Shown: in pieces, positions 15,112 to 35,950 of the stretch
How the letters are laid out: each line of letters begins with the position of its first letter
Position numbering within the stretch: position 1 is the first letter of the stretch
Assembly: GCA_000018565.1 (NCBI GenBank)
Contig: CP000875.1
Coordinates: 2,495,199-2,559,198, forward strand
DNA from: Herpetosiphon aurantiacus DSM 785
Lineage (GTDB): Bacteria > Chloroflexota > Chloroflexia > Chloroflexales > Herpetosiphonaceae
Length of the DNA: 64,000 nt
Direction: 5' to 3'
Made by a program: the position numbers and the translations under genes
The notes under the pieces: model-generated
What the model saw: only the letters and a program-made list of their open reading frames with translations
The model's database searches: none
Told to the model about the DNA's origin: nothing

Positions 15112-16335
15112 TCAGCTGTGTGTACTAGGATCGGCACAGTTAACCAGAAATCGAAAACACTGAGCCGCTTGACGAGCTTGCATAGTTGCTAAAGTTGCAG
15201 TATCGCCAGTGGCGATCGCAAATGCGCCTCGAGCAAATGAATCGCTTGCACCTTGAAAGAAACTGCCAAGCTCTTGGAGTACGTCGGCTTTAACCACGCC
15301 GGGACAATGCGTTGCTTGTTCTTGACCATCTACCCGTTCCAGTCTGCCAATGGCATGCGGGCTGGCATAGGCAATTGCTGCCCAGCGTTGAAAGCTGCGT
15401 GGAAGTTGCTCAAAGACTGTTTCGCCAGCGACCTGTTTAATCCAGAGTTGATCGACATCAATTCCGCTGGCTAGTTCAATCAATTCAACAATGCTATCGC
15501 CGGCAAGCCGGGCGTGAGTTTCGACAATCCGTGGTCCGCGAGCAGTCAGAATAATTTCGGTATGCGATGGGCCATTCTGTAGATCAAGCGCCGTTAAAAC
15601 CTGTTCGACAAAGCTTGTAATCTCTGCAACTGTTGCTTGAGGCAGTGGTGCTGGCAAGCAATGGCCAGTCTCAACACTGGTTTGGGGGTCTTTGAATTTT
15701 TGGGTGACGCAGATTATATGATGTTGGCCATATTCCGAAAAGGCTTCAACACTATATTCTTCGCCACTTAAATATTCTTCGACCAACATTGCATGGCCTG
15801 CTGCACCGGCTTCAAACCATGCTTGGGCAGTGGCAATCTCAGCAGCAGAACGAATAATCGAAACGCCCATGCTTGCTCGACCATCACGCGGCTTTAAGAC
15901 CAATGGATAGCCATAGCGTTCGCCAAATACCTTAATGTCGTCGGCTGTTTCGACCGATTGCGCTATGGTTGGATCAAGGTTCGCCTCGCGTAAGACTTGA
16001 CGCATTGCATCTTTCTGGCGCGTATAGTGAATTGTCGCGGAGCTATGATAGGGCAGTTTCAATGCTGCGGCAACATCGGCAGCAATATGCTGGGTCACTT
16101 CATTGAAGCCACCAAGCACATCAATCGGAGCATGGCAATGGATTAAGCGTGCCTGCTCGATCCATTGATCGATGGTTGCGTTCGCTGCCATGCCAACGAT
16201 GCGATCATAATCGCCATGGTTCTTGAGTGTTTTAATATTTTTGACCGGGCACAAGAGACTCAGGCGATGACCAAGTTGCTTGATTTTGGGATGAACCTCG
16301 CGAGCTGTGCCGATTAAGAGAAAATGGCGGCTCAT
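15112..16335 (-). CDS. ATP-grasp ligase (second of two in the operon)
   Basis: A 407-residue ATP-grasp enzyme, a fold that activates a carboxylate as acyl-phosphate and joins it to an amine. Visible parts in order are a pre-ATP-grasp Rossmann domain (HFLLIGTAREV), YGYPLVLKPRDGRASMGVSI (ATP-binding loop), AMLVEEYLSGEEYSVEAFS (hinge) and HTEIILTARGPRIVETHARL with GDSIVELIELASG (magnesium site; E..E.H.R replaces the usual E.N.R). This pattern is close to the carnosine-synthase/L-amino-acid-ligase branch, so dipeptide formation is likely. It is the last gene of the operon, 38 bases after RraA, and shares the internal promoter at 17049-17078. The acceptor cannot be read from sequence. Confidence 0.88.
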   Translation of the reverse strand: MSRHFLLIGTAREVHPKIKQLGHRLSLLCPVKNIKTLKNHGDYDRIVGMAANATIDQWIEQARLIHCHAPIDVLGGFNEVTQHIAADVAAALKLPYHSSATIHYTRQKDAMRQVLREANLDPTIAQSVETADDIKVFGERYGYPLVLKPRDGRASMGVSIIRSAAEIATAQAWFEAGAAGHAMLVEEYLSGEEYSVEAFSEYGQHHIICVTQKFKDPQTSVETGHCLPAPLPQATVAEITSFVEQVLTALDLQNGPSHTEIILTARGPRIVETHARLAGDSIVELIELASGIDVDQLWIKQVAGETVFEQLPRSFQRWAAIAYASPHAIGRLERVDGQEQATHCPGVVKADVLQELGSFFQGASDSFARGAFAIATGDTATLATMQARQAAQCFRFLVNCADPSTHS

Positions 16336-16373: not shown

Positions 16374-16997
16374 TTAATCAACGAAACCCTTGGTGCGCAA
16401 AATATCCTCGATTTTGGCGCGATGGGCTTGTTCCCATGCATCAAGGGTTTCGGCTGCATCTTTGGCGGCGCGAGCTTGAGCTTTTGCTAACACACTCTCA
16501 GCGCGATCACGAGGTACAACCACAATCCCCTCTTCGTCAGCGACGATAATATCGCCTGGGCCAACCTGAACTCCACCACAAACCAGCGGTTGATTAAGCG
16601 GATTGATAACCTCTTTGCCACCAGGAATTGGAATTACGCCGCGAGCAAACACCGGAAATTGGTTGGCGCGAGCTTCAGCCAGATCGCGAATTACGCCATC
16701 AATAATGAAGGCTTTGATGCCACGTCGTTGGGCAACCGCACAAACATTGCCACCAGCAACGGCAAAATTAGTATCAGCACCATCAACCACAATGATTGAG
16801 CCTGGCTCAGCCCGATAGATCGCGGCATGCAGCATAAGGTTATCGCCAGGCGTGCATTGAACAGTAAAGGCTGGGCCTGCTACACGCGGCATCCCTTGCC
16901 ATAACGGATGAATCCCCATATCCATCACTTGGCTACGGCTGAGTGCGTCGGCTAAAGTGGTTGGCGAAAGGGCTTCAAATGCTTGATAATCGATCAT
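16374..16997 (-). CDS. RraA-family aldolase/oxaloacetate decarboxylase-like protein
   Basis: A 207-residue member of the RraA / HMG-aldolase fold. It has the GGNVCAVAQRRGIKAFIIDG loop, then VIRDLAE with the arginine-aspartate pair of catalytic members, and PGDIIVADEEGIVVVP. Catalytic relatives cleave 4-hydroxy-4-carboxy-2-oxo acids by retro-aldol or decarboxylate oxaloacetate, using a divalent metal (family knowledge). That chemistry suits an operon that makes citrate-like tertiary alcohols. Non-catalytic RraA regulators of RNase E exist, but this context favours an enzyme. A broken copy of the gene lies at 7039-7216. Confidence 0.88.
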   Translation of the reverse strand: MIDYQAFEALSPTTLADALSRSQVMDMGIHPLWQGMPRVAGPAFTVQCTPGDNLMLHAAIYRAEPGSIIVVDGADTNFAVAGGNVCAVAQRRGIKAFIIDGVIRDLAEARANQFPVFARGVIPIPGGKEVINPLNQPLVCGGVQVGPGDIIVADEEGIVVVPRDRAESVLAKAQARAAKDAAETLDAWEQAHRAKIEDILRTKGFVD

Positions 16998-19773: not shown

Positions 19774-20996
19774 GCATTTACTCCTGCTGGCTCCCACAGT
19801 GCTTGGTGCTCGGCCCAGCGCCAAACCTCAATCAAGCGTTCTTCGGGGTTAGGAGCATCAGTCAGATCAACAATAAACCCGCCGACTTGATCAACACTCA
19901 TTTGCGCTGGTTGTGAGTGCGTACCTGCCTGAATGCTCCAATCGAAGTGGAGGACCCATGGTTGGGGTGGTTTTGCTTGGCGATAGCCGCGAAAAACCCC
20001 AGCTTGCGGTGGAACCAACCCCCAACCGACAATCTTCTTGGGTTGGGTGATCGCCCTTAATCGGCTCGTATCAATCGGCATGCCAGCTTGGCCTTGGATA
20101 AAGAGTTGATTTAGATTAATCCCAAATGCCTGCTCAATTGTTCCGTTGATCATACCGCCACCAGTGCGGCTGGCAATTTCGCAAAAGAACAGCTCATCGC
20201 CAGGAGTATGAAACAACTCAAGGTGAAAGCTGGTGACGGGTGGAGTTGGCAGCAAAGCCAACACTTCTTTGGCCGCTGCGATTAAGCGCTGGGTCAAGTG
20301 ATGTTCGGGCCGAAGCATCTGGCTCGCAGTAAACCAGCCTTGGGTAAAGGATAAACCATTGCCAAGATATTGCGATGGCCAGCAGAAACAGACCTCGTTA
20401 TCGACCAATAATCCATCGACATGATATTGATCGCCTTGGATAAAGCACTCAATTTCTAAACCACGGGGCAGCGGCTGTTGTAAAAACTGGGCCAGATCAT
20501 CCTCGTTTGCCAGCATTTTTGCCCCCAGCGAGCCACTGCCATCATCTGGTTTGACGATTACTGGGTAGCCATGCTGTTCGATAAATTGAATGATATCGAA
20601 CGGCTCGTTGATCGCCTGAAAGATTGGGATATTGACCAGCTGAGTGCGATTAACCAGGTGTTGCTTCATCACAACTTTATTGCGAAAGGCCAAGGCACTA
20701 TCGGCTTGTTGGCCTGGCAACCCAAGATAGCTACGTAAGCGGCCTGCACGCAGAATATCGACCTCTGAAGTTGCAACAATTCGCTCGATTGGCGATTGAC
20801 GATGCAGCCGTAAAGCCTCAAATTCAATCAGGCCACTGTCTTCATAGTTCTCAAATGGCTGAATCGCCGCAAACCCTTGAAAGCCCTGCACACGGTTGGC
20901 AGCCGTAAATAAGCGGGCCTGTGGCACTAAATCGCCAAGCCAATCGCCAAACGGAGCTAAGTGAGGCTTTTGACGATTGAGCACTAAGATCTTCAT
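19770..20996 (-). CDS. ATP-grasp ligase (first of two in the operon)
   Basis: A 408-residue ATP-grasp enzyme. NKVVMKQHLVN begins the core, EQHGYPVIVKPDDGSGSLGA is the ATP-binding loop, GLEIECFIQGDQYHVDGLLV the hinge strand, and FHLELFHT with FFCEIASRTGGG the magnesium site (E and E.A.R instead of the common E.N.R). The N-terminal domain (KILVLNR) is the usual pre-ATP-grasp fold. Such stand-alone enzymes in biosynthetic operons form amide bonds between unactivated acids. It overlaps the monooxygenase gene by 4 bases upstream and the propeller gene by 4 bases downstream, so the three are translationally coupled. It is only distantly similar to the ligase at 15112, suggesting a different bond or substrate. 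Confidence 0.88.
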   Translation of the reverse strand: MKILVLNRQKPHLAPFGDWLGDLVPQARLFTAANRVQGFQGFAAIQPFENYEDSGLIEFEALRLHRQSPIERIVATSEVDILRAGRLRSYLGLPGQQADSALAFRNKVVMKQHLVNRTQLVNIPIFQAINEPFDIIQFIEQHGYPVIVKPDDGSGSLGAKMLANEDDLAQFLQQPLPRGLEIECFIQGDQYHVDGLLVDNEVCFCWPSQYLGNGLSFTQGWFTASQMLRPEHHLTQRLIAAAKEVLALLPTPPVTSFHLELFHTPGDELFFCEIASRTGGGMINGTIEQAFGINLNQLFIQGQAGMPIDTSRLRAITQPKKIVGWGLVPPQAGVFRGYRQAKPPQPWVLHFDWSIQAGTHSQPAQMSVDQVGGFIVDLTDAPNPEERLIEVWRWAEHQALWEPAGVNA

Positions 20997-22375
20997 TCAG
21001 CACCTCGGGCAATCGCCAGCGTGGCACGTTCGGCAGTACTCTTGTTCGGGCGATTGAGCGGGCGATCAAGCCCTAGATGGTCACGTAAGGTTGTGCCTTC
21101 GTAGTCAGTTCGAAACAATCCACGGCGTTGTAATTCAGGAATCACCAAATCAACAAAGTCGTTTAAGCCATCAGGTAAGCTTGGCGGCATGATGTTAAAG
21201 CCATCAGCAGCCTCGTTCACAAACCAATCCTCAAGTTGATTGGCGATCTCGCTGGGGGTTCCAAGAATAAAGCGATGGCCTCGCCCGCCTGCAACCGAGA
21301 GATACAATTGGCGAATCGTGAGGCCTTGGCGTTGGGCTTGCTCGTAGACGAGTTTTTGGCGGCTGGTGCTGCCTTGGGTTTCCGGTAATTCTGGCAATGG
21401 CCCATCCAAGGGATAGCCTGAAATATCAACATCACCCAACAATCCGGTCAATAGCCCTAAACCAACCACCGGATCAACCAGTTCTTGTAAGATTGCATAT
21501 TTGGCTTCGGCCTCGGCTCTGGTTTGCCCAACCACTGCAAACACTCCAGGCATAACCTTGGCTTGTTCAGGCGAGCGTCCATGCTTAATCATTTGGCCTT
21601 TGATGCCACGATAAAATGTTTGGGCTTGCTCAAGCGTTTGATGGGCGGTAAAAATCACTTCGGCCCATTGAGCCGCAAAATCTTGACCGTCTTCTGATGA
21701 GCCAGCCTGCACAATAACTGGGTAGCCTTGGGGCGAACGAGCAAGGTTCAGCGGCCCGCGTACCTGAAAAAATTCGCCACGATGGTGCAACATATGTAGT
21801 TTTTGTGGTTCGAAATAGCGGCCTGTGGCTTTGTCGAAGATAAAGGCATCATCCTCCCAACTATCCCACAATCCTGTTACCACATCCATAAATTCGCGTG
21901 CCCGCCGATAACGGGTGGCATGATCAGGTTGGTGTTGAAGGTTGAAATTTTGGGCCTCAACATCGGTCACCGAGGTCACAACATTCCACCCAGCTCGCCC
22001 ATTGCTCAGAAAATCGAGCGAAGCAAATTTGCGGGCAATATGAAATGGCTCGTTATAGGTGGTTGAAGCAGTTGCCGTCAAACCAATCTTTTGGGTAACC
22101 ATGGCTAAGGCCGAAAGTAAGGTCAGTGGCTCAAACTGAACAATCCGACCCCAACGGCTTAATTCATCTTCATCTTTATAATGGGTGCGGATGCCAACTC
22201 CATCCGAGAGGAAAAGCATATCAAATTTGCCACGTTCAGCGGTTTGAGCCACCTGGGTATAGTGTTGAATTTCAAGCCCAGCATTAGCTGGAGTGTTCGG
22301 GTGTCGCCACGCGGCAACATGGTGGCCAGGTGCTGGCAGAAAAGCCCCAAGTTTCATCTGTCGTTGCGGTTTCAT
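20993..22375 (-). CDS. Flavin-dependent monooxygenase, NtaA/SnaA/DszA type (LLM superfamily)
   Basis: A 460-residue bacterial-luciferase-like enzyme that uses reduced FMN supplied by a separate reductase. Diagnostic stretches are QMKLGAFLPAPGHHVAAWRH, FDMLFLSDGV, TASTTYNEPFHIARKFASLD, GRAGWNVVTS, YPVIVQAGSSEDGQDFAAQW and the C-terminal GTPSEIANQLEDWF. Length and order match the NTA/DBT monooxygenase group rather than short LLM enzymes. Members hydroxylate N, C or S next to acids or cleave C-N bonds. In this operon it could oxidise an amine or carbon of the peptide or its precursor (inference). It is coupled by a 4-base overlap to the ATP-grasp gene. Confidence 0.92.
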   Translation of the reverse strand: MKPQRQMKLGAFLPAPGHHVAAWRHPNTPANAGLEIQHYTQVAQTAERGKFDMLFLSDGVGIRTHYKDEDELSRWGRIVQFEPLTLLSALAMVTQKIGLTATASTTYNEPFHIARKFASLDFLSNGRAGWNVVTSVTDVEAQNFNLQHQPDHATRYRRAREFMDVVTGLWDSWEDDAFIFDKATGRYFEPQKLHMLHHRGEFFQVRGPLNLARSPQGYPVIVQAGSSEDGQDFAAQWAEVIFTAHQTLEQAQTFYRGIKGQMIKHGRSPEQAKVMPGVFAVVGQTRAEAEAKYAILQELVDPVVGLGLLTGLLGDVDISGYPLDGPLPELPETQGSTSRQKLVYEQAQRQGLTIRQLYLSVAGGRGHRFILGTPSEIANQLEDWFVNEAADGFNIMPPSLPDGLNDFVDLVIPELQRRGLFRTDYEGTTLRDHLGLDRPLNRPNKSTAERATLAIARGAE

Positions 22376-22423: not shown

Positions 22424-23386
22424 TTAACTTAATTGGCGAATTGGTGCGCCTGCTAAAAAAGCCTGAATATCTTCAATCGCCTCGCCAAAATAGGCTTTGT
22501 AGTTGCGTTGGGATACATAGCCCAAGTGCGGTGTGGCTAAGACATTTGGCAAGCTACGAAATGGGTGTTGGGCTGGCAGCGGCTCAATCTCAAACACATC
22601 TAAGCCTGCGCCACCAATCCATCCCTGTTCCAAAGCCTGAATCAAGGCAGCTTGATCGACAATCGCTGCGCGAGATGTGTTGATCAGGTAGGCATGACGG
22701 CGCATGCGCTGGAGTTCGGCAGCGCCGATTAAACCGTGCGTCCGTTCGCCTAACACTAAGTGAATCGAAACAATATCACTCTGTTCAAGCAGCTGTTCTT
22801 TGGATACAGCGAGCTGAACACCTAGCGCTTGAGTGCGCTCAGCAGTGAGGTTTTGGCTCCACGCCAACACGTCCATACCAAATGCTTGGGCGACTTTGGC
22901 AACGTTGCTGCCAATTTTGCCTAAGCCTAATAAGCCCAAACGCTGGCCCGCCAAATCCATGCCAACGCTTTGTTGCCATGGGCCATTGGTGCGTAAAGCC
23001 AGATTTTCAGGCACAATCTGGCGAGCCAAGCCTAAAATCAGTGCCCAGGTTAATTCGGCTGGTGGCTCGGAACGGCTCGCCGTGCCACAAACCACCACCC
23101 CTTGGGCTTGGGCTGCTGCCACATCGATCGAGGCATTTCGCATACCCGAAGTGATCAACAGCTTGAGGTTTGGCAATTGGGCTAGTAAATCAGCTTTAAA
23201 TGGTGTTCGTTCGCGCATAATTACCACAATCTCACAATCGTGGATTGCTTGAATTAACGCGGTTTGTTCGCTGAAATAGTTAGAAAAAATCTCTACTTCA
23301 ACCTGTTCGGCTACCACTGACCAATCAGCCATCGCCAAGGCGGCGTGTTGATAATCGTCAAGAATTGCACAGCGTAGTTTTGTCAT
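22424..23386 (-). CDS. D-2-hydroxyacid dehydrogenase family protein
   Basis: A 320-residue NAD-dependent oxidoreductase interconverting 2-hydroxy and 2-oxo acids. The Rossmann motif GLLGLGKIGSNVAKVAQAFG starts near residue 151, the substrate-binding serine-arginine lies in LINTSRAAIVDQ (about 234), and the catalytic histidine is in ATPHLGYVS (about 287). The start DDYQHAALAMADW is typical of the PdxB/SerA-like branch often annotated as hydroxyacid dehydrogenase in biosynthetic clusters. After citrate synthase and aconitase homologues, it could oxidise an isocitrate- or malate-like 2-hydroxyacid, taking the place of isocitrate or isopropylmalate dehydrogenase. It overlaps the epimerase gene by 4 bases. 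Confidence 0.92.
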   Translation of the reverse strand: MTKLRCAILDDYQHAALAMADWSVVAEQVEVEIFSNYFSEQTALIQAIHDCEIVVIMRERTPFKADLLAQLPNLKLLITSGMRNASIDVAAAQAQGVVVCGTASRSEPPAELTWALILGLARQIVPENLALRTNGPWQQSVGMDLAGQRLGLLGLGKIGSNVAKVAQAFGMDVLAWSQNLTAERTQALGVQLAVSKEQLLEQSDIVSIHLVLGERTHGLIGAAELQRMRRHAYLINTSRAAIVDQAALIQALEQGWIGGAGLDVFEIEPLPAQHPFRSLPNVLATPHLGYVSQRNYKAYFGEAIEDIQAFLAGAPIRQLS

Positions 23387-24408
23387 TCGATTGCTCCTTG
23401 AATGGTTAATCCTAAACCTGGAGTTTGCGGTAAACGCAGCGTACCTTGCTCGATCACAAGGCCTTGAAAGGGGTCATTGACCAAATCAAGATGCCCATCA
23501 AGATCAAGGTAATCTGCTAGCCCGGCAAGTTGGGCGATGGCGCTAATTCCAAGGCTGCTTTCAGTTTTACAACCCAACATAACTTTTAAGCCAAATTGCT
23601 TGGCCACGTCGATCATCGTGCGAGCTTGGCGTAAGCCTCCACATTTGAAGAGTTTGAGATTAATTACATCAACACATGTATGCAAGCGCAGCACATCAGC
23701 AAGCCCACGACAATCTTCATCGGCAACTATGGGAATTGGTGAGTGTTGGCGAATTGTGCGCAGTTGGTCGAGGTTGCCCGCTGGAATTGGCTGTTCGATC
23801 AGTTCAACCCCATAGGTATGGCATTGTTGCGCCGCAGCAATCGCTTGATCAACATCCCATGCTCCATTGCCATCAACCCAAATCCGCCCAGCATAGACCT
23901 CGCGTAGTTGGCGCAGGCTATCGAGATTGCTATCGGTTGTGAGTTTGAGTTTAAGAATTGGCCATGCCGCCAATTTTGCAGCCTGTGCGACCAAGGCCTG
24001 CTCCGATTGTGCGCCAAGCGAGAGTGCCGTTGGTGGGATGCTCAACCCTGCCAAGCCCCAAAGCGCGTGGATGGGTTGGGCAACCACCTTGCCCAAAAGA
24101 TCATGCCATGCCATATCGATGCCAGCCATCATTGCAGCCTGATTGCGAACGACTGAGGCTAATTGACCTTGATACAGTTCAAATTGCCATGGTGTGGCGG
24201 TACTAAGCAATGGTTCACAAGCCTGAATCAGCTGTTGAATTTGCTCAACACTAAGTTGGGTTTCTTTGGGGCAAAGTACCGTACCAAAACCACCATACTC
24301 CTGCCAAGTTAATTTGATTACAACTTGGTGCACCGTAGTCGTCGAGCCCTTATTGCTGACAAACGGTTGCTCAAGTTGCAGGCTGAGCACTGTTGTGGTT
24401 AAGTTCAT
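23383..24408 (-). CDS. Enolase-superfamily epimerase/racemase (dipeptide-epimerase-like)
   Basis: A 341-residue enzyme of the muconate-lactonizing/Ala-Glu-epimerase branch. Catalytic residues are in place: the ILKLKLT lysine pair, metal ligands in IWVDGNGAWD, VELIEQPI and PIVADEDC, and the opposite lysine in INLKLFKCGGLRQARTM. These enzymes remove the proton next to a carboxylate and put it back on either side. Members next to peptide ligases often epimerise dipeptides (family knowledge), which fits the two ATP-grasp genes. I start at the ATG at 24408, overlapping the stop of the MFS gene; a longer frame to 24555 lies inside that gene and is unlikely. Confidence 0.9.
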   Translation of the reverse strand: MNLTTTVLSLQLEQPFVSNKGSTTTVHQVVIKLTWQEYGGFGTVLCPKETQLSVEQIQQLIQACEPLLSTATPWQFELYQGQLASVVRNQAAMMAGIDMAWHDLLGKVVAQPIHALWGLAGLSIPPTALSLGAQSEQALVAQAAKLAAWPILKLKLTTDSNLDSLRQLREVYAGRIWVDGNGAWDVDQAIAAAQQCHTYGVELIEQPIPAGNLDQLRTIRQHSPIPIVADEDCRGLADVLRLHTCVDVINLKLFKCGGLRQARTMIDVAKQFGLKVMLGCKTESSLGISAIAQLAGLADYLDLDGHLDLVNDPFQGLVIEQGTLRLPQTPGLGLTIQGAIE

Positions 24409-25697
24409 GAGCTTGTTTCCGCTAAAGCAGCTGGGGTGGTTGCGGCGACAGGTTCTTCGCCAAGTAAGCGCCAGCCCAAAAATCGCGGACTGCCAAGCAC
24501 CAACGCCAGTACAGCAAAGCCGAAACAAATTGCCCCACTGAGCAGCAAGGCCCAATTGAGCGAACTATTGGTAGCACTGGCAATCAATGGAATGCTGATC
24601 GCCGTGATTAGTGACGTTAGCAAATTGCGCGTGATTCCAATCCGCCCTTTGATCGCTCCGCGAATCCGTAATTGCAGCGTGGTCATCAAAACCGTCCACG
24701 AGATCGTGTTGAATGCGCCTAAGCCGAAGCACAGCAGAATGGTGAGCCATTGGTTGCTGAAGAACCCAAGCAGCATAAAACACAGGGCTTGCCCGCCAAT
24801 CCCGACCATAGTTGAGGTACGCGATCCCCAGCGTTTGGAAAGTGGCTCCACCACGCCACCAGAGATCATCGCTCCGATTGCATAAGCACATTCGATTACT
24901 GAGAGCCAATAGACACTGCCATTGTAGCGGGCAGCAATCAGTGGCACGGCGATCAAATTAAACAGGTGCACGGCGACTGCATCAATCGTATTGAGCAACA
25001 AATGCCAAATAAAGCCGACTTCGCGGCGCAGCAAGCCGATCACCTCACCCCAACCGCCAATAATCTGTTGCCAAGCATTCTGAACCTGGGCTTTGGCTTC
25101 GGCAACTACTTCATGATCAGTTAATTGGATAAAACTAACCGCAAGTGCCGAAAAGAGAAAGGTTAAACCATTGATAAAAAAGGCAACAGCAGGCCCAAGG
25201 TAATAGAACACTGGGCTGGCAACAATTACGCCCAATAATTGACCGGCTTGCAAGCTAATATTGGTATAGCCGTTGTAGCGCCCAAGCGAATCGCGGGGAA
25301 TGGCGGCTGGGGCGAGGGCAAAGGTAGCCGCCCGATAAAATGGATGGGCCACCCGAATCACCAGCGTCATCAACATAATCCAGAGCACCACTTGATCGCC
25401 ACCAAGCATCAGGCTGGCAAAACAGACAAATAGACCGCGAATAATTTCAACCTGAATACATGTGCGTTTGGGACTACCGCGGTCAACCCATGGTCCTGCA
25501 ATAAACTGCATTAAGAAGGTTAAGCCCTGTTCGAGAATAATCACTCCACCAAAAGCTGCGGCAGAGCCAGTTCGATCATAGAGTAAAAGCCCGATCGTAA
25601 AAGTTTGCATTCCATTGCCAATGGTTGTGATAAAGGTTGCTGCTAATAACCATAACCCTGCAATTGGAATATTCAAGCGTTTGCTTAGCTGTTGCAT
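24405..25697 (-). CDS. MFS transporter (EntS/NreB-like exporter)
   Basis: A 430-residue integral membrane protein with about 12 helices. It opens GLWLLAATFITTIGNGMQTF and has the MFS loop motif in AGPWVDRGSPKRTCIQVEII between helices 2 and 3, then ISGGVVEPLSKRWGSRT in the second half. The drug/siderophore exporter subgroup fits best. Located in the middle of the operon and coupled to the epimerase gene by overlap, it is the likely export and self-protection route for the product. Confidence 0.9.
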   Translation of the reverse strand: MQQLSKRLNIPIAGLWLLAATFITTIGNGMQTFTIGLLLYDRTGSAAAFGGVIILEQGLTFLMQFIAGPWVDRGSPKRTCIQVEIIRGLFVCFASLMLGGDQVVLWIMLMTLVIRVAHPFYRAATFALAPAAIPRDSLGRYNGYTNISLQAGQLLGVIVASPVFYYLGPAVAFFINGLTFLFSALAVSFIQLTDHEVVAEAKAQVQNAWQQIIGGWGEVIGLLRREVGFIWHLLLNTIDAVAVHLFNLIAVPLIAARYNGSVYWLSVIECAYAIGAMISGGVVEPLSKRWGSRTSTMVGIGGQALCFMLLGFFSNQWLTILLCFGLGAFNTISWTVLMTTLQLRIRGAIKGRIGITRNLLTSLITAISIPLIASATNSSLNWALLLSGAICFGFAVLALVLGSPRFLGWRLLGEEPVAATTPAALAETSS

Positions 25698-25736: not shown

Positions 25737-27200
25737 TTAGGCCAATGCTGAATTTGGCGCAAGCCAATGGATTAATGCGCCAACGATCATGCAGGCCTGA
25801 CGAAAGCTCAATTCTCGAAAGCCAATTGGTTCAACTGGGCGACTGCTCACCAGCGTTTGGGTGTGCAAAATACCCTGACGTGGCGCAAATCGATGTATCC
25901 AGTAGGTCGATAGGATTGTCCGTTGGCGTTCGAGCCATCCTGCTACCTGCTGACTAATTGTTTGCTGATAGGTAGTTTGATCGCTGCTTGGCTCAAGCTG
26001 TTGCACCTGCTTGAACAACTCTGTTAGTGCCTCTGCATCGTGAGGATGCTGGTTGGTTGGACAAAGCGCGAAGATCACCGCAGGTAATAAGATCAGCAGC
26101 ATCGGATCAACTTCGTCAAATGCATCAATGATGCTTTGGCACAGTGTGCGATAGCTTTTGGTGGTTGATTTTTCGGCGATATAGCCATTGCGATAGGGTG
26201 GGTAGCCAGCCATATCCCGCGCACCCCAGTGGAAATGCGGATTGAATGGCCGACACATGGTTTGGCGCTCAACCGTGGTGTTGGGGTAATGGGTATGAAA
26301 GATTGCCGAGAAAATGCCTGCGAGCAAATGCGAACAGAGCGGCATCTGGTTTGGTAGTTGTTTGATATTGGCAAAAAAGCTCGCTGGCTCGGCTACTGCA
26401 AGCCATGGCAGCATACTCGCCTCGGCTAGGTCTGCTGCTGAGCTATAGAACATTGCCCCCATGCGATACCCCTGGGCTTCGCGTTGGATCGCAACCCGTT
26501 GCATTCTGCCATCAAGGCTGACCTGATGGCTTAAAATATCTTGAAAGGCCCGGCGTGTATTGGGTTGGATGGCTGCTTGTTCCAGTAAATGCTGGACAAT
26601 CGCTTTGGCTAGCTCGGCATGGTGCCAGACGCTTTGTGCTTCAAGCCGAAATTCAAATTGCTGAAATTGCTGCATCCGTTGCCAATGCAAGGTATTGAGC
26701 GGGATTTGCCCCCCATCAACACTCGTTTGAACAAATGGCGTAAAGAGCGGCTGCTCCCGTTGTCGTTCAACCAAGCCTTGTCCATCCCAGGTGTACAAGG
26801 GTAGCAGAGTCCGTTTGCCATGATCGATCAACGAACCAGGCAAGTAGACCCAATCCCCACGTTCTAAGGCCGCATCCTCAGTCTGATTAAAACAGTAAAT
26901 TAATGGGTATCCATAGCCTTGGCTACAAATCGCTTGATTAAAATCCATCATACCGGCTCGGCCATGGCCAATTTCTTCCCAATTGCCCATATGTCCCGTG
27001 CGGGGTGGCAGCAAGGTTGGTGAGTGCTGAATCAAATCCAGCACTTGTCCAACCGGAATATCGGTTAATCCAAGGTGCAGCCAATCGAATGCTTGTTGGC
27101 GGTCGGCAAAGCGATCAAGCGTGGGTTCAAGCCGATCGAATAGCCCTAAATGCGCTAAAATAGCGTCTGGTGTCAATTGTTCAGGTTGTTGAGCTGTCAT
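25737..27200 (-). CDS. Unrecognised 487-aa protein of the biosynthetic operon
   Basis: A soluble protein without signal peptide or clear membrane segment. I do not recognise its family with confidence; a DUF6025-like label is possible but unchecked. Visible features are an N-terminal helical part (HLGLFDRLEPTLDRFADRQQ), histidine- and aromatic-rich blocks such as PPRTGHMGNWEEIGHGRAGM and FNPHFHWGARDMAGYPPYRN, and a C-terminal ELSFRQACMIVGALIHWLAP. Conserved-looking histidines and acids hint at an enzyme, possibly metal-dependent. Its ATG overlaps the aconitase stop by 4 bases, so the two are coupled and probably act close together in the pathway. Confidence 0.75.
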   Translation of the reverse strand: MTAQQPEQLTPDAILAHLGLFDRLEPTLDRFADRQQAFDWLHLGLTDIPVGQVLDLIQHSPTLLPPRTGHMGNWEEIGHGRAGMMDFNQAICSQGYGYPLIYCFNQTEDAALERGDWVYLPGSLIDHGKRTLLPLYTWDGQGLVERQREQPLFTPFVQTSVDGGQIPLNTLHWQRMQQFQQFEFRLEAQSVWHHAELAKAIVQHLLEQAAIQPNTRRAFQDILSHQVSLDGRMQRVAIQREAQGYRMGAMFYSSAADLAEASMLPWLAVAEPASFFANIKQLPNQMPLCSHLLAGIFSAIFHTHYPNTTVERQTMCRPFNPHFHWGARDMAGYPPYRNGYIAEKSTTKSYRTLCQSIIDAFDEVDPMLLILLPAVIFALCPTNQHPHDAEALTELFKQVQQLEPSSDQTTYQQTISQQVAGWLERQRTILSTYWIHRFAPRQGILHTQTLVSSRPVEPIGFRELSFRQACMIVGALIHWLAPNSALA

Positions 27201-29884
27201 TGTTGATTCACCTGCTTTGCTTGAGGCAGCGCCAAACGTTGCACAACCTGTTGGAGAATGCCGCCAGCGTAGTAGGTTCGCAATTCACTCGGGTTATCAA
27301 TCCGAACGCGCATTGTCCATCGATTGACGTTGCCATCAGCGTCACTGGCCTCAACCACACATTCGCCCCCGGCTACAAGCGCATCTAAACCATAAATCGT
27401 ATAGAATTCAGCTCCATTTAATCCAAGGCTTTGCCATGGTTGCCCCGCCATAAATTCCAGCGGCAAAATACCCATACAGACCAAATTGGCCCGATGAATC
27501 CGCTCGAAACTTGCCGCCAACACTGCTTGAACACCAAGCAATTTGGGCGCTTTGGCAGCCCAATCACGCGATGAGCCTGAGCCATATTCGTTACCTGCCA
27601 GAATAATTAGCGGAGTGTTGGTCGTGGCATAGCGCATGGCCGTAGCATAGATCGTATCTTGCTGGCCGCTCGGCTGATGCAGACTAAAACCACCTTCAAT
27701 CCCCGCAAGTAGTTGATTTTTTAGCCGAGCGTTAGCAAACCCACCTCGTACCATTAATTCATGATTGCCGCGACGAGCGCCATAGGCATTAAAATCTGAT
27801 GGTGCAACGCCCTGCTCAAGCAAATAGCGCCCAGCTTCGCCCTTAGGATCAATTGCGCCACCAGGTGAAATATGGTCGGTGGTAATGCTATCGCCTAACA
27901 ACGCCAACACCCGCGCATCCTTAATGATGCTTGGTGATTGGTTGCTTTTGCCATGAATATAGTGCGGACGCTTAAGATAGGTTGATTGGGTTGCCCATGG
28001 ATAGAACAGCGTCTTTTCGATGGTAATCGCTTGCCATTCAGCGGGAATCACTGGTTGTTGATAGTGTTTGTGAAACATGCTTGGTTTAATCAGGTTGGCC
28101 AAAAGCGCTTGAATTGTTTGCTCCCTTGGCCAAATATCAGCCAAATAGACGGCTTGTCCATCACTGCCATAACCAAGCGGCTCAGTTTCGAGATCGATGT
28201 TCATGGTTCCAGCTAGGGCATAGGCAATCACTAATGGCGGTGAGGCCAGATAATTCAAGCGAATCGCTGGATGAATTCGACCTTCAAAGTTGCGATTGCC
28301 ACTCAATACGCCGCTGGCCATTAACCCCTGTTCAGCGACTGCTTGGCTCAGCTGTGGATGAATTGGCCCACTACTGCCCGAACAAGTCATACAGCCATAG
28401 CCTACAATCTGAAAGCCGAGGGTTTCCAAGGCTGGTAGCAACCCTGCTTCTTGCAGATAGGTGGTCACGACCCGTGAGCCTGGCGAAAGGCTGGTTTTGA
28501 CATAACGAGGAACGCGTAGCCCGCGTGCAACTGCCTGCTGCGCCAAAACGCCTGCTGCCAACATTACTGCAGGATTCGAAGTATTGGTGCATGAAGTGAT
28601 TGCCGCTAGCAGCAATGCCCCATGGTCTAAGCGATACGTTTGATCATCAAGCGCTACCGTAATCGGTTGCTGCTTTGGCTGCGTGGCTGCAACTACCGAA
28701 GCTGGCACAGCACGCAGGCTTAGGCGATCTTGGGGGCGGGCTGGTCCTGCAACACATGCTTCAACCGTCGCAAGATCAAACTGGATCAGTTTGGCAAACT
28801 GGGGCAATTGGGCATTAGGTTGGCGAAAAAGCCCTTGAAATTGATAATAGGCTTCGACCTGTTGGATCAACTCGGCTGAACGACCCGTCGTTTGGAGATA
28901 GCGAATCGTTTCTGCATCAACTGGGAAGTAGCCGCAGGTGGCTCCATATTCAGGAGCCATATTGGCAATCGTGGCACGTTCGGCAATACTAAGCTGATTA
29001 ACCCCAGTGCCACAAAATTCGACAAACTGTTCAACTACGCCCGCTTGACGCAAGCGTTGGGTGAGGCTTAACACCAAGTCGGTTGTCGTCACACCTGGAC
29101 GTAGTGAGCCAGTTAATTCAACCCCAACGACGCTGGGCAAGGTCAGCATAAGTGGGTAACCAAGCATAACCGCTTCGGCCTCGATGCCACCCACGCCCCA
29201 ACCAAGTACCCCTAAACCATTAATCATCGTGGTATGGCTATCAGTTCCACAGACACTATCAGGCAACATGAGTTCACCAGTGGCCGTTACCTGGGTTTGG
29301 ACAACGGTTGCGAGGTGTTCAAGATTAATTTGGTGAACAATGCCGCTACCAGGTGGAAAGACCCGCACATGTTTAAACGCGGCTTCGGACCAACGTAATA
29401 AGTGATAGCGCTCTTGGTTGCGTTCAAACTCGTAGCGTGTGTTGATGGCGAATGCATTTGGCACACCAGCCACATCAACAATAATCGAGTGGTCTACCAC
29501 GACATCTGTTGGGACAACGGGATTGACCAAGCTTGGGTCGCCGCCAGCCTCAGCTACGGCCTCGCGAATTGCCGCTAAATCTACAAATACCGGAACTCCT
29601 GTAAAATCTTGCAACAGTACCCTGGCTGGCAGATAAGGAATAACCACTTTTGGCTGTGCAATGTCGGGCTGCTGGAGTTGGTTAATCAATGCTTCGATCG
29701 CTGCGAGATCGCTCAACCCGCGTCCAAAGGCGCGTAATTGCGCTTCAAGCAAAAGTCGGAGCGAAAATGGCAGCGTTTCAAGTTCAAGCTGATAGCTACT
29801 TGCGAGTGCTTGAATTGACCAGACGCGATAGGTTTGGCCTGCACACTCCAATGAACGTTGGAATGCTGGATTCACTGTTTGCAT
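27197..29884 (-). CDS. Aconitase-family hydratase (AcnA-like)
   Basis: An 895-residue [4Fe-4S] hydro-lyase, full length for AcnA. It has DFTGVPVFVDLAAIREAVAE, the cluster cysteines in SCTNTSNPAVM and GYGCMTCSGSSGPIHP, LSGNRNFEGRIHP, GDSITTDHISPGG and EYGSGSSRDWAAKAPKLLGV of the swivel domain. Aconitase moves the hydroxyl of citrate to give isocitrate. Here it sits between an adenylation gene and an unknown gene, with the citrate synthase gene two genes upstream, so it most likely isomerises a citrate analogue; paralogues do this in phosphinothricin and FR-900098 synthesis (established). The possibility that it is the housekeeping enzyme remains. The start overlaps the adenylation stop (TAATG). 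Confidence 0.93.
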   Translation of the reverse strand: MQTVNPAFQRSLECAGQTYRVWSIQALASSYQLELETLPFSLRLLLEAQLRAFGRGLSDLAAIEALINQLQQPDIAQPKVVIPYLPARVLLQDFTGVPVFVDLAAIREAVAEAGGDPSLVNPVVPTDVVVDHSIIVDVAGVPNAFAINTRYEFERNQERYHLLRWSEAAFKHVRVFPPGSGIVHQINLEHLATVVQTQVTATGELMLPDSVCGTDSHTTMINGLGVLGWGVGGIEAEAVMLGYPLMLTLPSVVGVELTGSLRPGVTTTDLVLSLTQRLRQAGVVEQFVEFCGTGVNQLSIAERATIANMAPEYGATCGYFPVDAETIRYLQTTGRSAELIQQVEAYYQFQGLFRQPNAQLPQFAKLIQFDLATVEACVAGPARPQDRLSLRAVPASVVAATQPKQQPITVALDDQTYRLDHGALLLAAITSCTNTSNPAVMLAAGVLAQQAVARGLRVPRYVKTSLSPGSRVVTTYLQEAGLLPALETLGFQIVGYGCMTCSGSSGPIHPQLSQAVAEQGLMASGVLSGNRNFEGRIHPAIRLNYLASPPLVIAYALAGTMNIDLETEPLGYGSDGQAVYLADIWPREQTIQALLANLIKPSMFHKHYQQPVIPAEWQAITIEKTLFYPWATQSTYLKRPHYIHGKSNQSPSIIKDARVLALLGDSITTDHISPGGAIDPKGEAGRYLLEQGVAPSDFNAYGARRGNHELMVRGGFANARLKNQLLAGIEGGFSLHQPSGQQDTIYATAMRYATTNTPLIILAGNEYGSGSSRDWAAKAPKLLGVQAVLAASFERIHRANLVCMGILPLEFMAGQPWQSLGLNGAEFYTIYGLDALVAGGECVVEASDADGNVNRWTMRVRIDNPSELRTYYAGGILQQVVQRLALPQAKQVNQQ

Positions 29885-31536
29885 TAGGCCGTTCCTTCAC
29901 CTGCTAAGTGGCGAGCCAAGGCCAACCGATCAATTTTGCCATTGGCATTCAGCGGCATGGTTTCAAGCTGATAGATGGTGCGCGGCAGCATATAGCTTGG
30001 GAGCAATGGCTGAACCGCCTGTTGCAGATCACTGACTGCAATGCTTGGCGCAATTACAAACGCGACAATTCCGCTCGCCGAACCGTTTTCAAGCGGCCAG
30101 CCCAGTGCAACCGCAGCAACTACGCCTGGTTGGAGTAATAACGCCCCTTCAATCTCGCTTAATTCCACCCGGTAGCCATGGACTTTAATTTGTTGATCGC
30201 TGCGCCCAAGGTAAATCATGCTGCCATTGGTGCGGCATACAACCCGATCACCGGTGCGGTAGTAGCCGAGTTCCTCGCCATTAAGCTGTTTGCTGCGCAG
30301 AAACCGTTGCTCCGTGAGGCTTGGGTTGTGCCAATAGCCTTGGAAGGTTTGTGGGCCAGCAACACACAATTCGCCTTCTGTACCTGCTGGTACAGGATTA
30401 TCGTTTGCGTCAACCACCACCGCGGTTAAACCTGGGTAGAGTTTACCAATTGGGACCACTTCATTCAAACATTCAGCAGGCGAGGTGAGGGAATTCCAGC
30501 GATACACTGCACAGGCGATTGTTAATTCGGTTGGACCATAGAGATTGTCGATTATTGAGTTGGGCGCAGCAAGTTGCCAAGCCTCAGCGGTAGCTTTGGG
30601 CAACGCTTCGCCACAAAAAAGGCTTAAGCGTAAGTTGGGCAAGCTATTGGGCTTGAGTAGTTTTTGTTTGCGCAGTAACGCGGCAACTGATGGTACCGAA
30701 AACCAAATCGTAATTCCCTGCTCTTCAATTAAGCGAAAAGGTGAGAGCAATTGGATCGGTTGGATAACACAGACCGCCGCACCATGATTCCAAGCCATAA
30801 AAAGATCAAAGATGGCCAGATCAAAGGTTTGATCAAAGGTCTGGCTCAGCCGATCAGCAGGCGTAATCTGATATCGTGCTTGATTTACCTTGAGAAAGTG
30901 TGCGACATTGGCATGACTAATTGGTACGCCTTTGGGGTTGCCGGTGCTACCCGAAGTGAATAACAGATAGGCAATTGCCTCAGGCGGCACAGTAACTGGT
31001 TCATGATCAGTCGGTAGCTCAGCAAGCTCGGCTTGAGTATAGATCATTGTATCAAGCAGCGGCGCACGCAAACAATCAGGCAAGAGGACACATGGCGGTA
31101 GTACTGGCAGCGAATCGGCCAATTGCAAAAATTGGTCATACGATTGGTGATCGACAATAATCGCATCAAGCTCTGCTTGCTCGATCATCGCTTGGGTCCG
31201 TTGAAGTGGAAAGTTGTAGTTCAGCGGCACAAAGGTTGCGCCAGCCAATAAGCTTGCCAAAATCCCGATGTAGGCTGCTTCACTACGATAGGCAAAAATA
31301 CCAACACGATGCAGCGGTTTGGTTGATTGGCGAAGCGCGAAAGCCCAGCGTTGGGCAACTGTATATAATTTGACATAATCATACTGTTTATTACCAATCG
31401 TTAAAGCGATGTTATTTGGATAGCGCTGGACGCTCTGTAGAAAACCGCTGTGCAATTGGCTGGTTGCGTGTGCTTGGTTTGGCTCGCTTTGGCATGGAGG
31501 CACAACTTCAAGCATCTGGTTAAACTCAATCATCAT
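29884..31536 (-). CDS. Stand-alone NRPS-type adenylation enzyme
   Basis: A 550-residue enzyme that activates a carboxylic acid with ATP and passes it to a carrier thiol. Core motifs: LLFTSGSTGNPKGVPISH (A3), FDLAIFDLFMAWNHGA (A4), NLYGPTELTIACAVYRW (A5), GELCVAGPQTFQGY, YRTGDRVV (A7), YLGRSDQQIKVHGYRVELSE (A8) and NANGKIDRLAL (A10 lysine). The aspartate that binds an alpha-amino group is present (FDLA), so an amino acid is a likely substrate. Aligning by eye to GrsA gives pocket residues D-L-F-F-L-C-L-I-A-K, which I cannot match to a known residue. It has no carrier domain of its own; the only one nearby is fused to citrate synthase in the gene just upstream, 38 bases away. Confidence 0.93.
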   Translation of the reverse strand: MMIEFNQMLEVVPPCQSEPNQAHATSQLHSGFLQSVQRYPNNIALTIGNKQYDYVKLYTVAQRWAFALRQSTKPLHRVGIFAYRSEAAYIGILASLLAGATFVPLNYNFPLQRTQAMIEQAELDAIIVDHQSYDQFLQLADSLPVLPPCVLLPDCLRAPLLDTMIYTQAELAELPTDHEPVTVPPEAIAYLLFTSGSTGNPKGVPISHANVAHFLKVNQARYQITPADRLSQTFDQTFDLAIFDLFMAWNHGAAVCVIQPIQLLSPFRLIEEQGITIWFSVPSVAALLRKQKLLKPNSLPNLRLSLFCGEALPKATAEAWQLAAPNSIIDNLYGPTELTIACAVYRWNSLTSPAECLNEVVPIGKLYPGLTAVVVDANDNPVPAGTEGELCVAGPQTFQGYWHNPSLTEQRFLRSKQLNGEELGYYRTGDRVVCRTNGSMIYLGRSDQQIKVHGYRVELSEIEGALLLQPGVVAAVALGWPLENGSASGIVAFVIAPSIAVSDLQQAVQPLLPSYMLPRTIYQLETMPLNANGKIDRLALARHLAGEGTA

Positions 31537-31574: not shown

Positions 31575-32996
31575 TTATTGACGTTGGCTCAATGCTGGAT
31601 AGGGCTGATCAATTGGCCCAACATAGGCAAGCAATGGGCGAATCAAAATATTGTTGGCATATTGCTCTTGAATTTGGGCCAACCAGCCCACGGTTCGGCC
31701 AACAATAAATGCTGGAACAAACAGATCGTAGGGAATACCCAAAAGGTGATAAATAACACTGGCATAAAAATCAACATTCACATCGATTCCTTTGGCCATA
31801 TAGGGACGCATTGCTTGAACAACCGCTTCAAGAATCGCGTAATAGTTGTTATCGCTTTGTGCGCTCAAGGCCTGCGCTGCTTTGCGTAAATGACGTGCTC
31901 GTGGATCTTCGGTTTGATAGACCCGATGCCCAAAACCCATCACTGGCTGATTGTTGGCTTGTAAGTTGGCTACATAATCGGCAGCTCGCTCAGGAGTACC
32001 GATCGCTTGAATCATGGCAATGACCTGTTCGATGGCCCCGCCATGGAGTGGGCCTGCAAAGGCGGCAATTGCAGCAGTGAGCGCTGCATACCAGTCTGAG
32101 CGTGTTCCTGCGACAACTCGGGCTGCAAAGGTTGAAGCATTGGCACTATGATCAGCATGCAGAATCAGAATCTGATTCACGATCTGCTGAGCCTGTTGGC
32201 TCGGAATGGTTCCTTGGAGCATGTAGAGAAAATTAGCAGCATGATCAAGCGTTGGGTTGGGCTGGATTGGTGTTTTTCCTTGGCGAATCGCATGATGAGC
32301 TGCAATCAAGCAGGGCATTTGTGCAATCAGTCGAATAGACCGAGCTTTGGTTGCAGTAACTGATCCATCAAGGCGCTCAGCATCGAACGTGGCAAGCGCC
32401 GAAAGGCAGGTGCGCAAAACTTCGGTGGGATGGCCATCTTTTAGGAGCTGAATCAACTCCAAAATCGTTGCTGGTATCTCTCGTGCTGCCACCAACTGGT
32501 GCTTAAATTGATCCAACTCAGTGGTTGTTGGCAATTGCCCATTCAATAATAAAAAGGCTGTTTCCTCAAACGTCGTTTGCTCAACCAAATCATGAATGCT
32601 ATAGCCGCGATATTGCAAGCGGCCTTGTTTGCCATCGATCAACGTGATCTGGCTCTGATCGAAGGTTACTCCTGCAAGGCCACGATAGACCACACCACCG
32701 TCAGTTTGAGTTTCAATCCCTGCTGTGTGGGTTGATGTCGGCTGAAGCGTCCCCTGCATATAGGCCTTAATTTGGGCAACAGAACTAAGTGTAACAATGG
32801 TATCAGGTTCGATTGTCACTCCATAGGTTGTTTCTAATGCCAACATCAAGTTAATATGCGCCAATGAATCCCATTGCATAATTGAACGGTAGCTAAGTTG
32901 ATCGGTTACCATATATTCTGGAATTTGCAGCACCTGAGCAATCAGATTGGTTATATCTGAAATTTGATTATTGGTGATTTTTTGTGGATTGACCAT
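31575..32996 (-). CDS. Acyl carrier domain fused to citrate synthase
   Basis: A 473-residue fusion. Residues about 5-80 are a carrier domain with phosphopantetheine serine at 44 (IMQWDSLAHINLMLALE). After a short linker rich in threonine, residues about 90-473 are a complete citrate synthase. Catalytic residues are in place: histidine about 321 in AGPLHGGA, histidine about 357 in GFGHRVY and aspartate about 409 in NVDFYAS, plus DPRARHLRKAA. Citrate synthase condenses acetyl-CoA with oxaloacetate; here the acyl donor or a product may be carrier-bound instead. The adenylation gene directly downstream would load the carrier. I chose the ATG at 32996 (AGGAG 12 bases before) over one 45 bases upstream. 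It is first in the operon. I know of no characterised enzyme with this layout. Confidence 0.9.
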   Translation of the reverse strand: MVNPQKITNNQISDITNLIAQVLQIPEYMVTDQLSYRSIMQWDSLAHINLMLALETTYGVTIEPDTIVTLSSVAQIKAYMQGTLQPTSTHTAGIETQTDGGVVYRGLAGVTFDQSQITLIDGKQGRLQYRGYSIHDLVEQTTFEETAFLLLNGQLPTTTELDQFKHQLVAAREIPATILELIQLLKDGHPTEVLRTCLSALATFDAERLDGSVTATKARSIRLIAQMPCLIAAHHAIRQGKTPIQPNPTLDHAANFLYMLQGTIPSQQAQQIVNQILILHADHSANASTFAARVVAGTRSDWYAALTAAIAAFAGPLHGGAIEQVIAMIQAIGTPERAADYVANLQANNQPVMGFGHRVYQTEDPRARHLRKAAQALSAQSDNNYYAILEAVVQAMRPYMAKGIDVNVDFYASVIYHLLGIPYDLFVPAFIVGRTVGWLAQIQEQYANNILIRPLLAYVGPIDQPYPALSQRQ

Positions 32997-32999
32997 AGA

Positions 33000-33352
33000 A
33001 CGTTTAAACTCCTGATTCTCAATTCTTAACTGAAGGCACAACGATATAGATACATACTTAAATCAATATTATATGATTAAGTGTGTATATAAACTATTAA
33101 ATTATTTGCTTTAGTAATAATTGATATTGTTGCAGCAGAAATGGAGGTAGATAGGCAACATTATTATTTTAAGCCGAAGTTTTAATTCCCTCAAGCACGG
33201 TTGTGTAGTATACGCGCATGATTATCGTATGTCAATACGAAAAAAGGCTGATGAAAATGAGAGTTTTATCATTCACATTTAACCTTTCCCAATCGCAAAA
33301 CTAGGCTACACTAGACCAATACTAATCATTTGATTAAAGGTTTAAACCCGCT
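33000..33352. promoter_or_regulatory. AT-rich divergent intergenic region
   Basis: About 350 bases, clearly richer in A and T than the flanking genes, between the first gene of the operon (minus) and the PhzF-like gene (plus). It must hold both promoters. No single -35/-10 pair stands out by eye and no terminator or riboswitch is evident. Confidence 0.5.
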
Positions 33353-34255
33353 ATGAAACAGGTTAACGTGTATCAAGTTGATGCCTTCACTCAGCATAAA
33401 TTTCGCGGAAATCCTGCTGGGGTTGTGACACATGCTGATGATCTGAGCACCCACGAGATGCAACAACTGGCCCGCGAACTGAATAACTCCGAAACGGTCT
33501 TTTTGCTTGCGCCGACTGATTCAAGTCATGCGGTCTGGCTACGATTTTTTACCCCTACCGTCGAAGTTCCATTGTGTGGTCATGCGACGATTGCGGCTCA
33601 CTATGTGCGTGCCCATGAGCTGCAATTAGGCTCATGCCAACTCCGACATAAAACTGGAGCCGGGATACTGCCAATTGAAGTTATCCAAGCCAATAATGAT
33701 TATCAAATTATTATGACTCAAGCTGCAATTGAGTTTGGCCCGATCATTGATGGACAATCCAAACAGGCTTTACTTGATGCGCTTGGTCTGACTATTCACG
33801 ACCTGCATTACGCATGCCCGATTCAAATAGTCTCAACGGGGCATTCCAAAGTATTAATTGGGATTAACCAGCGCACAAAGCTTGATCAACTGCGCCCGAA
33901 TCTTGCAGCCCTTACCCTGCTGAGTAAACAAATTGGCTGCAATGGCTATTTTGTCTATACATTAGACTCTGATGATCCGGCGATTCTTTCCTATGGGCGG
34001 ATGTTTTCACCAGCGATTGGGATCAATGAAGATCCGGTTACGGGGAATGCAAATGGGCCACTCGGAGCCTACTTAGTGCATCATCGATTGGTTGCCCACA
34101 ACGGAATCCATTTGCGGTTTACTGCATGTCAAGGTGTTGCGATTGGGAGGACTGGGTATATTGAGGTTCAGGTGTTGATTGAAGCTGATGAGCCTGTTTT
34201 GGTTAAAGTTGGGGGTCATGCAGTGATTGTTTTTCAAACGAGCATTCAGTTGTAA
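33353..34255 (+). CDS. PhzF-family isomerase-like protein
   Basis: A 300-residue protein of the diaminopimelate-epimerase fold. It opens VYQVDAFTQHKFRGNPAGVV and has the acid/base glutamate in ARELNNSETVFLL, RFFTPTVEVPLCGHATIAAH and the mirrored second-half GINEDPVTGNANGPLGAYL. PhzF of phenazine synthesis catalyses a 1,5-hydrogen shift; most relatives have unknown substrates. It is divergent from the biosynthetic operon and may act in it or stand alone. The ribosome site is weak (AAAGG about 13 bases before the ATG). Confidence 0.9.
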   Translation: MKQVNVYQVDAFTQHKFRGNPAGVVTHADDLSTHEMQQLARELNNSETVFLLAPTDSSHAVWLRFFTPTVEVPLCGHATIAAHYVRAHELQLGSCQLRHKTGAGILPIEVIQANNDYQIIMTQAAIEFGPIIDGQSKQALLDALGLTIHDLHYACPIQIVSTGHSKVLIGINQRTKLDQLRPNLAALTLLSKQIGCNGYFVYTLDSDDPAILSYGRMFSPAIGINEDPVTGNANGPLGAYLVHHRLVAHNGIHLRFTACQGVAIGRTGYIEVQVLIEADEPVLVKVGGHAVIVFQTSIQL

Positions 34256-34355
34256 TATTTGCTGCCGTTAGGAAAAAATAATCGCATGGCCACAGGCAAT
34301 AGGCGGGATGACCAGTTTTAGGGCGTTGGATTATACTGATCAGACTCGTCCTGGC

Positions 34356-34423
34356 CATTTGCACTCAACGCTGAATTTGGTAGCATGCTGCTAGTTCATT
34401 GGTTTTGGATAGATGGAGCATAC
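34356..34423 (+). repeat. Second copy of the hisD leader segment
   Basis: 68 bases matching 7353-7414 with two substitutions and a 6-base insertion (TTTTGG). It still carries the ribosome-site sequence GATGGAGCATAC, but the hisD ATG is absent: a different sequence starts exactly where the coding region should begin. It lies between PhzF and the recombinase, close to its putative sites. Confidence 0.85.
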
Positions 34424-34546
34424 CCTATCCTGATGTCAGATTCCGCACAATCCAGTGTCAGAGTAGGGTTATTTTTGCCATTTCTTGACGAATGCTCACA
34501 ATGGTCTTAAACTCTATCCTGACAGTACATCCGCGAGGAGACCATC

Positions 34547-35808: not shown

Positions 35809-35950
35809 TCGTGCTTGTTGGTTCCTGACACTGAAGAGGGGGTAGCCGTCGCGGTGCTCCCTCACACACCGATCATCCCGACCTGAAAATGATGCTTGAC
35901 ATGCACCAATGTGCCCATGATAATAGGGACACATTGGCGCTTTCGTATGA

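Follow-up and report, generated by a model that had tools for sequence, protein, structure and literature searches.

A carrier-fused citrate synthase heads a twelve-gene operon in Herpetosiphon aurantiacus that may build a small peptide around an amino-tricarboxylate

What reaction would a citrate synthase (CS) carry out when an acyl carrier protein (ACP) domain is fused to its own N-terminus? The question is raised by a 64,000-nucleotide window of the Herpetosiphon aurantiacus DSM 785 genome (GenBank CP000875.1, positions 2,495,199 to 2,559,198), in which such a fusion gene is followed by genes for an adenylation enzyme (A) and an aconitase; we know of no carrier-fused citrate synthase that has been described. 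A preliminary description had named these three genes and had proposed that an amino acid, perhaps glycine or beta-alanine, is loaded onto the carrier, condensed with an oxo acid in the manner of citrate synthase and passed to the aconitase. The three genes are real, with A exceeding the cut-off of the TIGR01733 profile (342 bits against 317) and the start of the AcnA-type aconitase gene overlapping the end of the A gene, but they are only three of an operon of 12 genes, and the strand had not been given. The plus-strand translation of 31575-32996 contains many stops, and the open reading frame lies on the minus strand, as does the whole operon, which runs from 33041 down to 15112 with overlaps or short gaps and with the fusion gene first (Table 1). 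Its core consists of ACP-CS, A, aconitase and a DUF6025 protein. The fusion protein has 473 amino acids when read from the ATG and 488 codons when read from the TTG. Reading the reactions from residue patterns and gene content, we consider it an evenly balanced question whether this operon builds a small peptide around an amino-tricarboxylate.

Table 1 Features of the operon and its upstream side, with coordinates in the window.
Feature	Coordinates	Strand	Remarks
ACP-citrate synthase fusion gene	31575..33041	-	ATG at 32996, alternative TTG at 33041
Carrier (ACP) domain	32760..32957	-	residues 14-79; PF00550, family profile, AF2 helices
Ser44 codon	32865-32867	-	predicted phosphopantetheine site
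Citrate synthase domain	31635..32681	-	residues 106-454; PF00285 (Citrate_synt), E 6e-122
Catalytic equivalents H318, H357, D409	32043-32045, 31926-31928, 31770-31772	-	
Stand-alone amino-acid adenylation enzyme A	29884..31536	-	code DLFFLCLIAK, glycine predicted
AcnA-type aconitase	27197..29884	-	altered pocket (S502, S504, G675)
DUF6025 protein	25737..27200	-	constant partner of ACP-CS
MFS exporter	24405..25697	-	present in most clusters
Enolase superfamily (MR/MLE), dipeptide epimerase / N-acyl-Glu racemase type	23383..24411	-	Pfam MR_MLE
D-2-hydroxyacid dehydrogenase	22424..23386	-	
NtaA/MoxC-type FMN-dependent (LLM) monooxygenase	20993..22375	-	TIGR03860, 601 bits
ATP-grasp enzyme 1	19770..20996	-	L-amino acid ligase-like
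YCF48-type beta-propeller repeat protein	17080..19824	-	914 aa; between ATP-grasp genes
RraA-like aldolase/decarboxylase family	16374..16997	-	
ATP-grasp enzyme 2	15112..16335	-	LAL_C2 domain (L-amino acid ligase)
Promoter-like site TTGACA-17-TATACT	33207..33235	-	upstream of operon; consensus match only
PhzF-like isomerase	33353..34255	+	divergent; cluster membership uncertain

The N-terminal domain gives a modest match to the Pfam PP-binding family (E 6e-6), which only two of seven orthologues reach individually. When eight family members are combined into a profile, this finds 103 solved sequences at E <= 0.01, the best of them acyl carrier proteins; E. coli ACP is matched along its full length (E 6e-13, 72 residues), and because of this match we regard the N-terminus as a true carrier domain. 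The motif W42-D43-S44 is invariant across orthologues, in agreement with the phosphopantetheine serine that had been proposed, and an AF2 model of the fusion shows the ACP helices with S44 starting helix II, a disordered linker (residues 85-115) and a CS core that matches 1vgp, 1iom and 1aj8. When two Herpetosiphon genomes are compared, omega is 0.11 for the ACP part and 0.075 for the CS part; together with the presence of the fusion in 10 orthologous loci, these values indicate that the fusion did not arise by chance.

All three catalytic residues of the CS domain had been claimed and are present, and H318, H357 and D409 are invariant in 10 of 10 orthologues, as are the oxaloacetate arginines R366, R434 and R453. 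In an archaeal CS, the counterparts of the former are the catalytic triad, and oxaloacetate and citrate are held by the arginines that correspond to the latter (PMC6386500). The fused enzyme shares fold, triad and oxaloacetate arginines with the type II CS / 2-methylcitrate synthase group (TIGR01800; 1iom, 1vgp, 1aj8), from which it differs in its N-terminal ACP, in lost basic residues and in changed residues beside the catalytic ones. With about 20 canonical CSs of that order as the reference, positions 314, 327, 351 and 450 are non-basic in all 10 fused CSs: K314, R327 and R450 of the canonical enzymes are lost, and P351 and I450 are fixed. Positions 236, 349 and 350 are mostly without a base and 361 has partly lost it; a lysine at 236 is retained in the Paenibacillales cluster L073, and one cyanobacterial CS likewise lacks a base there. 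Residues 313, 322, 412 and 433, close to the catalytic residues, are altered as well. Position 351 stands immediately upstream of the MGFGH loop, the CoA-adenine binder of pig CS. The CoA contacts of the lost basic positions are presumed by mapping from pig CS, since the literature searched contained no paper listing the CoA-contact residues of a type II CS, and the loss of the site was judged from sequence rather than coordinates.

Such a loss would be as expected if the acyl group sits on a tethered pantetheine arm instead of CoA, and we consider it likely that the substrate of the fused CS is carrier-bound and not CoA-bound; the acceptor is probably oxaloacetate. Alternatively, the CS might use acetyl-CoA in the ordinary way, its carrier serving for regulation or as a scaffold, and raise the supply of citrate for a citrate-containing siderophore or chelator; its well-conserved core (420.3 bits against a TIGR01800 cut-off of 421.3, marginally below in NCBIfam) and the exporter and ligases of the operon would then find an explanation. 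We regard this as distinctly unlikely, as conserved basic residues, some of them beside the CoA-adenine loop, are lost, A is always adjacent and the operon contains no IucA/IucC-type synthetase. A housekeeping function in the TCA cycle was rejected, because the genome carries separate CS, AcnA and LeuC-type genes elsewhere, along with two genes of the phosphopantetheinyl transferase (PPTase) family. As a separate observation, in other citrate synthases of the order (L003, at G000:C1:5294287-5295333, L027 and L028) Glu aligns with the catalytic Asp, and Val or Leu with H280; the subfamily may be divergent, or the alignment may have shifted.

What the carrier would bear is best approached through the pocket of A. 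The Asp235 and Lys517 equivalents are present in seven of seven loci, across which the pocket code is near-invariant (DLFF[L/F]CLI[A/S]K). Over this region, the nearest solved enzymes are IdnL7 (6akd), AlmE (4oxi) and 8k4r, the last of which we take to be VinM, and the first nine code positions, as read from alignments, are DCFFLALIT in IdnL7 and DLHLFCLIA in AlmE. The code of A follows the IdnL7 frame except at three determinants, where it has Leu, Cys and Ala as AlmE does; L240 and C308, which are Leu and Cys in all seven loci, correspond to AlmE L248 and C316. IdnL7 takes Gly, Ala and Ser via C217, A285 and T318, and AlmE L248 and C316 lie near the alpha carbon and disfavour substrates larger than glycine (adenylation-domain review PMC11253843). 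Given the AlmE-like residues at the three determinants, glycine is the best prediction, and we lean towards glycine as the amino acid that A loads; Ala or Ser may also serve, as neighbours sharing this code may accept them. The pocket code therefore predicts one of the two amino acids suggested earlier, glycine.

An alternative is that the carrier bears another acyl group (alanine, serine, a beta-amino acid or an N-modified glycine), or that another oxo acid is the acceptor, so that the product would be a homologue of aminocitrate. The closest whole-length solved relatives of A, 8k4r and IdnL7, do accept Gly, Ala and Ser, but the three IdnL7 residues that admit Ala and Ser are replaced by those of the glycine-specific AlmE and the oxaloacetate arginines are invariant, and we consider this variant unlikely, if still worth weighing. 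Since 8k4r, the top whole-length solved relative, belongs to a VinM family that forms an amide on an aminoacyl-ACP, A might rather aminoacylate an amine already present on the carrier while another enzyme loads the CS substrate. This seems very improbable to us, given that the operon has neither another adenylation gene nor an acyltransferase gene by which the first group could be loaded, and that the A pocket resembles that of AlmE, which loads glycine onto its carrier. Stand-alone enzymes of the AlmE, IdnL7 and VinM type share with A a pocket for small amino acids; they use free-standing carrier proteins, whereas the carrier of A is fused to a citrate synthase, and their products lead to lipid A or macrolactam starters.

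The aconitase of the operon appears to have been modified without losing its chemistry. Of 20 positions that line the active site or hold the Fe-S cluster, 17 are identical in six of six operon-type aconitases, with the Fe-S cysteines and catalytic residues intact, and the equivalents of I425, Q427 and A573 are changed relative to 22 canonical AcnA sequences. The Ile-Gly-Asn behind the last Fe-S cysteine has become Ser-Gly-Ser (with Asn and Gly in one sequence), and in the region of the DHIS motif Ala is replaced by Gly or Val. These patterns suggest that the enzyme is active but that its substrate has changed. They would also be compatible with a resistant copy of the target of an aconitase-inhibiting product, and the exporter, the peptide ligases and the lack of an aconitase beside one locus (L034) could be read in the same way; the tight order of ACP-CS, A and aconitase in most clusters suits a pathway step at least equally well, and we think self-resistance highly improbable. 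Aconitase as a partner, as first proposed, thus holds for most clusters, where it is adjacent and its pocket altered, but not near L034, and it is DUF6025 that is constant.

On these grounds, the preferred reading is a route in which a host phosphopantetheinyl transferase would first arm S44, and A, as predicted from its invariant pocket, would then activate glycine and load it onto the fused carrier. Third, because it keeps the catalytic and oxaloacetate residues and has lost basic residues in the surroundings of the CoA site, the CS would enolise the carrier-bound glycyl thioester and add it to oxaloacetate, giving 2-aminocitrate after cleavage of the thioester. Fourth, the re-tuned aconitase would yield amino-isocitrate. 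Judging from the families of the remaining proteins, the dehydrogenase and/or the FMN monooxygenase may oxidise amino-isocitrate, the ATP-grasp ligases could join the product to amino acids to form a di- or tripeptide, the enolase could epimerise the Glu-like residue so formed, and export of the final product would fall to the MFS protein; that this product is a peptide is a moderately favoured view. The fourth and later steps are either not universal or supplied elsewhere in the genome, since no aconitase was found beside L034 and three Bacilli clusters have no D-2-hydroxyacid dehydrogenase. The scheme of a carrier-loaded amino acid, a citrate-type condensation and an aconitase step, as originally put forward, is still the best-supported reading, drawn from sequence; the enolase, the LLM monooxygenase, the ATP-grasp enzymes and the MFS protein suggest in addition that what the condensation yields is built up into a peptide for export.

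The enolase retains KxK, the acidic metal ligands D, E and D and the opposing K motifs, and is most closely related to dipeptide epimerases and to the N-acetyl-D-Glu racemase DgcA. Neither the YCF48-like repeat gene nor the RraA-like gene was found in other clusters; the latter is under very strong constraint (omega 0.02), and relatives of its product cleave 4-carboxy-4-hydroxy-2-oxoadipate or oxaloacetate. Across the operon, every gene is under purifying selection (omega 0.02-0.18 between the two Herpetosiphon genomes). The proposal that the LLM monooxygenase is the most conserved and hence the key gene was dropped; LLMs on unrelated plasmids show 60-66% identity. Just upstream of the Rossellomorea cluster lies an NADPH-dependent FMN reductase gene (L032, 3347-3928), which could supply reduced FMN for the LLM monooxygenase. 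Rfam gave no matches over the operon region, and promoter-like matches such as that in Table 1 were as numerous as the shuffle mean.

DUF6025 resembles no established enzyme closely. Its AF2 model, built from seven sequences, has a pLDDT of 74, a value that falls mostly below 50 in the two regions with conserved motifs, and a Foldseek search with it gave no match at E <= 0.001. A second structural search returned only class I LysRS/MetRS and unrelated entries (Z <= 5.4), among them the LysRS structure 1irx with Z 5.4 and rmsd 6.5 over 235 residues, the model being of low confidence at the motif. As a DUF6025 profile search matched no class I aminoacyl-tRNA synthetase sequence, this likeness is a lead only. 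Taken jointly, our tentative and slightly less than evenly weighted reading is that CS, aconitase and dehydrogenase are diverted to a PLP-free condensation of a carrier-tethered glycyl thioester with oxaloacetate, and that DUF6025 carries out a core step as a predicted new enzyme class.

DUF6025 also served as a specific probe for finding clusters. It and the operon block are single-copy in the 6,785,430-base Herpetosiphon genome; in a sibling Herpetosiphon species the block is present as a single unit (15084 to beyond 33041) with 91% DNA identity, and it is absent from four further genomes of the genus. The probe recovered clusters in Paenibacillus, Thermoactinomyces, Metabacillus, Rossellomorea, a Lysobacteraceae MAG and a Hyphomicrobiaceae MAG; two further genomes of the Paenibacillus order carry the cluster, and the V. 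tubiashii plasmids p251 and pFP31 have the same gene set. The cluster is thus spread over three phyla: besides Herpetosiphon, it occurs in Bacilli, in Gammaproteobacteria and, in a four-gene form, in an Alphaproteobacterium. It is rare, being found in 2 of 301 genomes of its own phylum, 2 of 397 of the Metabacillus order, 3 of 346 of the Paenibacillus order and 1 of 369 of the class of the Lysobacteraceae MAG. The search for the same architecture and its neighbours that the preliminary description had proposed was borne out, as all 10 loci with a readable ACP-CS gene contain the fusion with A adjacent; locus L033 ends before this gene. Bacilli keep the order ACP-CS, A, aconitase, DUF6025, and the reduced locus L034 has A, ACP-CS, MFS and DUF6025 only. 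In the Paenibacillales cluster L073 (6264-7705), DUF6025 is split over two frames with a stop, possibly through a frameshift or sequencing error. In the CS tree Herpetosiphon sits among Bacilli, and horizontal transfer of the cluster is therefore likely.

Several known systems resemble parts of this arrangement. The FR-900098 enzymes FrbC, FrbA and FrbB, and phosphinomethylmalate synthase with Pmi in the phosphinothricin pathway, divert a CS-type condensation and an aconitase from the TCA cycle for an antimetabolite, as would be the case here. These TCA-mimicking routes start from a C-P oxo acid and free acetyl-CoA and are not known to involve a carrier domain or an adenylation enzyme, both of which are present here, and their products are often coupled into a small peptide; no PEP mutase family member is among the operon proteins. 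Fungal alkylcitrate synthases (squalestatin, maleidrides) also use the CS fold for oxaloacetate condensation in natural products, but with a polyketide-derived acyl-CoA, and they are not known to have a fused carrier or to activate an amino acid. The amino acid of alahopcin (nourseimycin) has a glycine-plus-oxaloacetate (aminotricarballylate-like) skeleton, joined to L-alanine; this Streptomyces product contains a hydroxamate, and the likeness may be taken as a lead only. Alahopcin is named as a dipeptide antibiotic (PMC9712658). The open-access literature, which our search covered with 5.39 million papers, yielded nothing on DUF6025, on a CS/aconitase/adenylation/ATP-grasp cluster or on aminocitrate biosynthesis; the single aminocitrate match concerned a phosphonic analogue that had been assayed with penicillin-binding proteins. 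The operon suggests an as yet undescribed route to an amino-citrate-based small peptide.

If the preferred reading is true, citrate-synthase chemistry reaches from acyl-CoA to carrier-bound amino acids, forming a carbon-carbon bond at the glycine alpha carbon without PLP and giving a thiotemplated tricarboxylate amino acid, within a family of small-peptide clusters traceable through DUF6025. As the cluster occurs in culturable Herpetosiphon, Paenibacillus, Metabacillus and Vibrio, loading, condensation and product are directly testable.

Beyond the divergent PhzF-like gene, a relative of which is also found in the L033 cluster, the flanking DNA contains a serine resolvase (PF00239; 34547-35125, plus strand) and a PIN-like small protein recognised by eye (35353-35808, plus strand). 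The sibling genome lacks a stretch that extends from roughly 34255 to 34911 and includes most of the resolvase, which suggests a mobile insertion at the cluster edge. Further along, an open frame of 3103 amino acids (35896-45207, plus strand) has, by eye, repeats of the RHS/YD type, a segment resembling Hint and a short segment at the C-terminus, and looks like a polymorphic secreted repeat protein.
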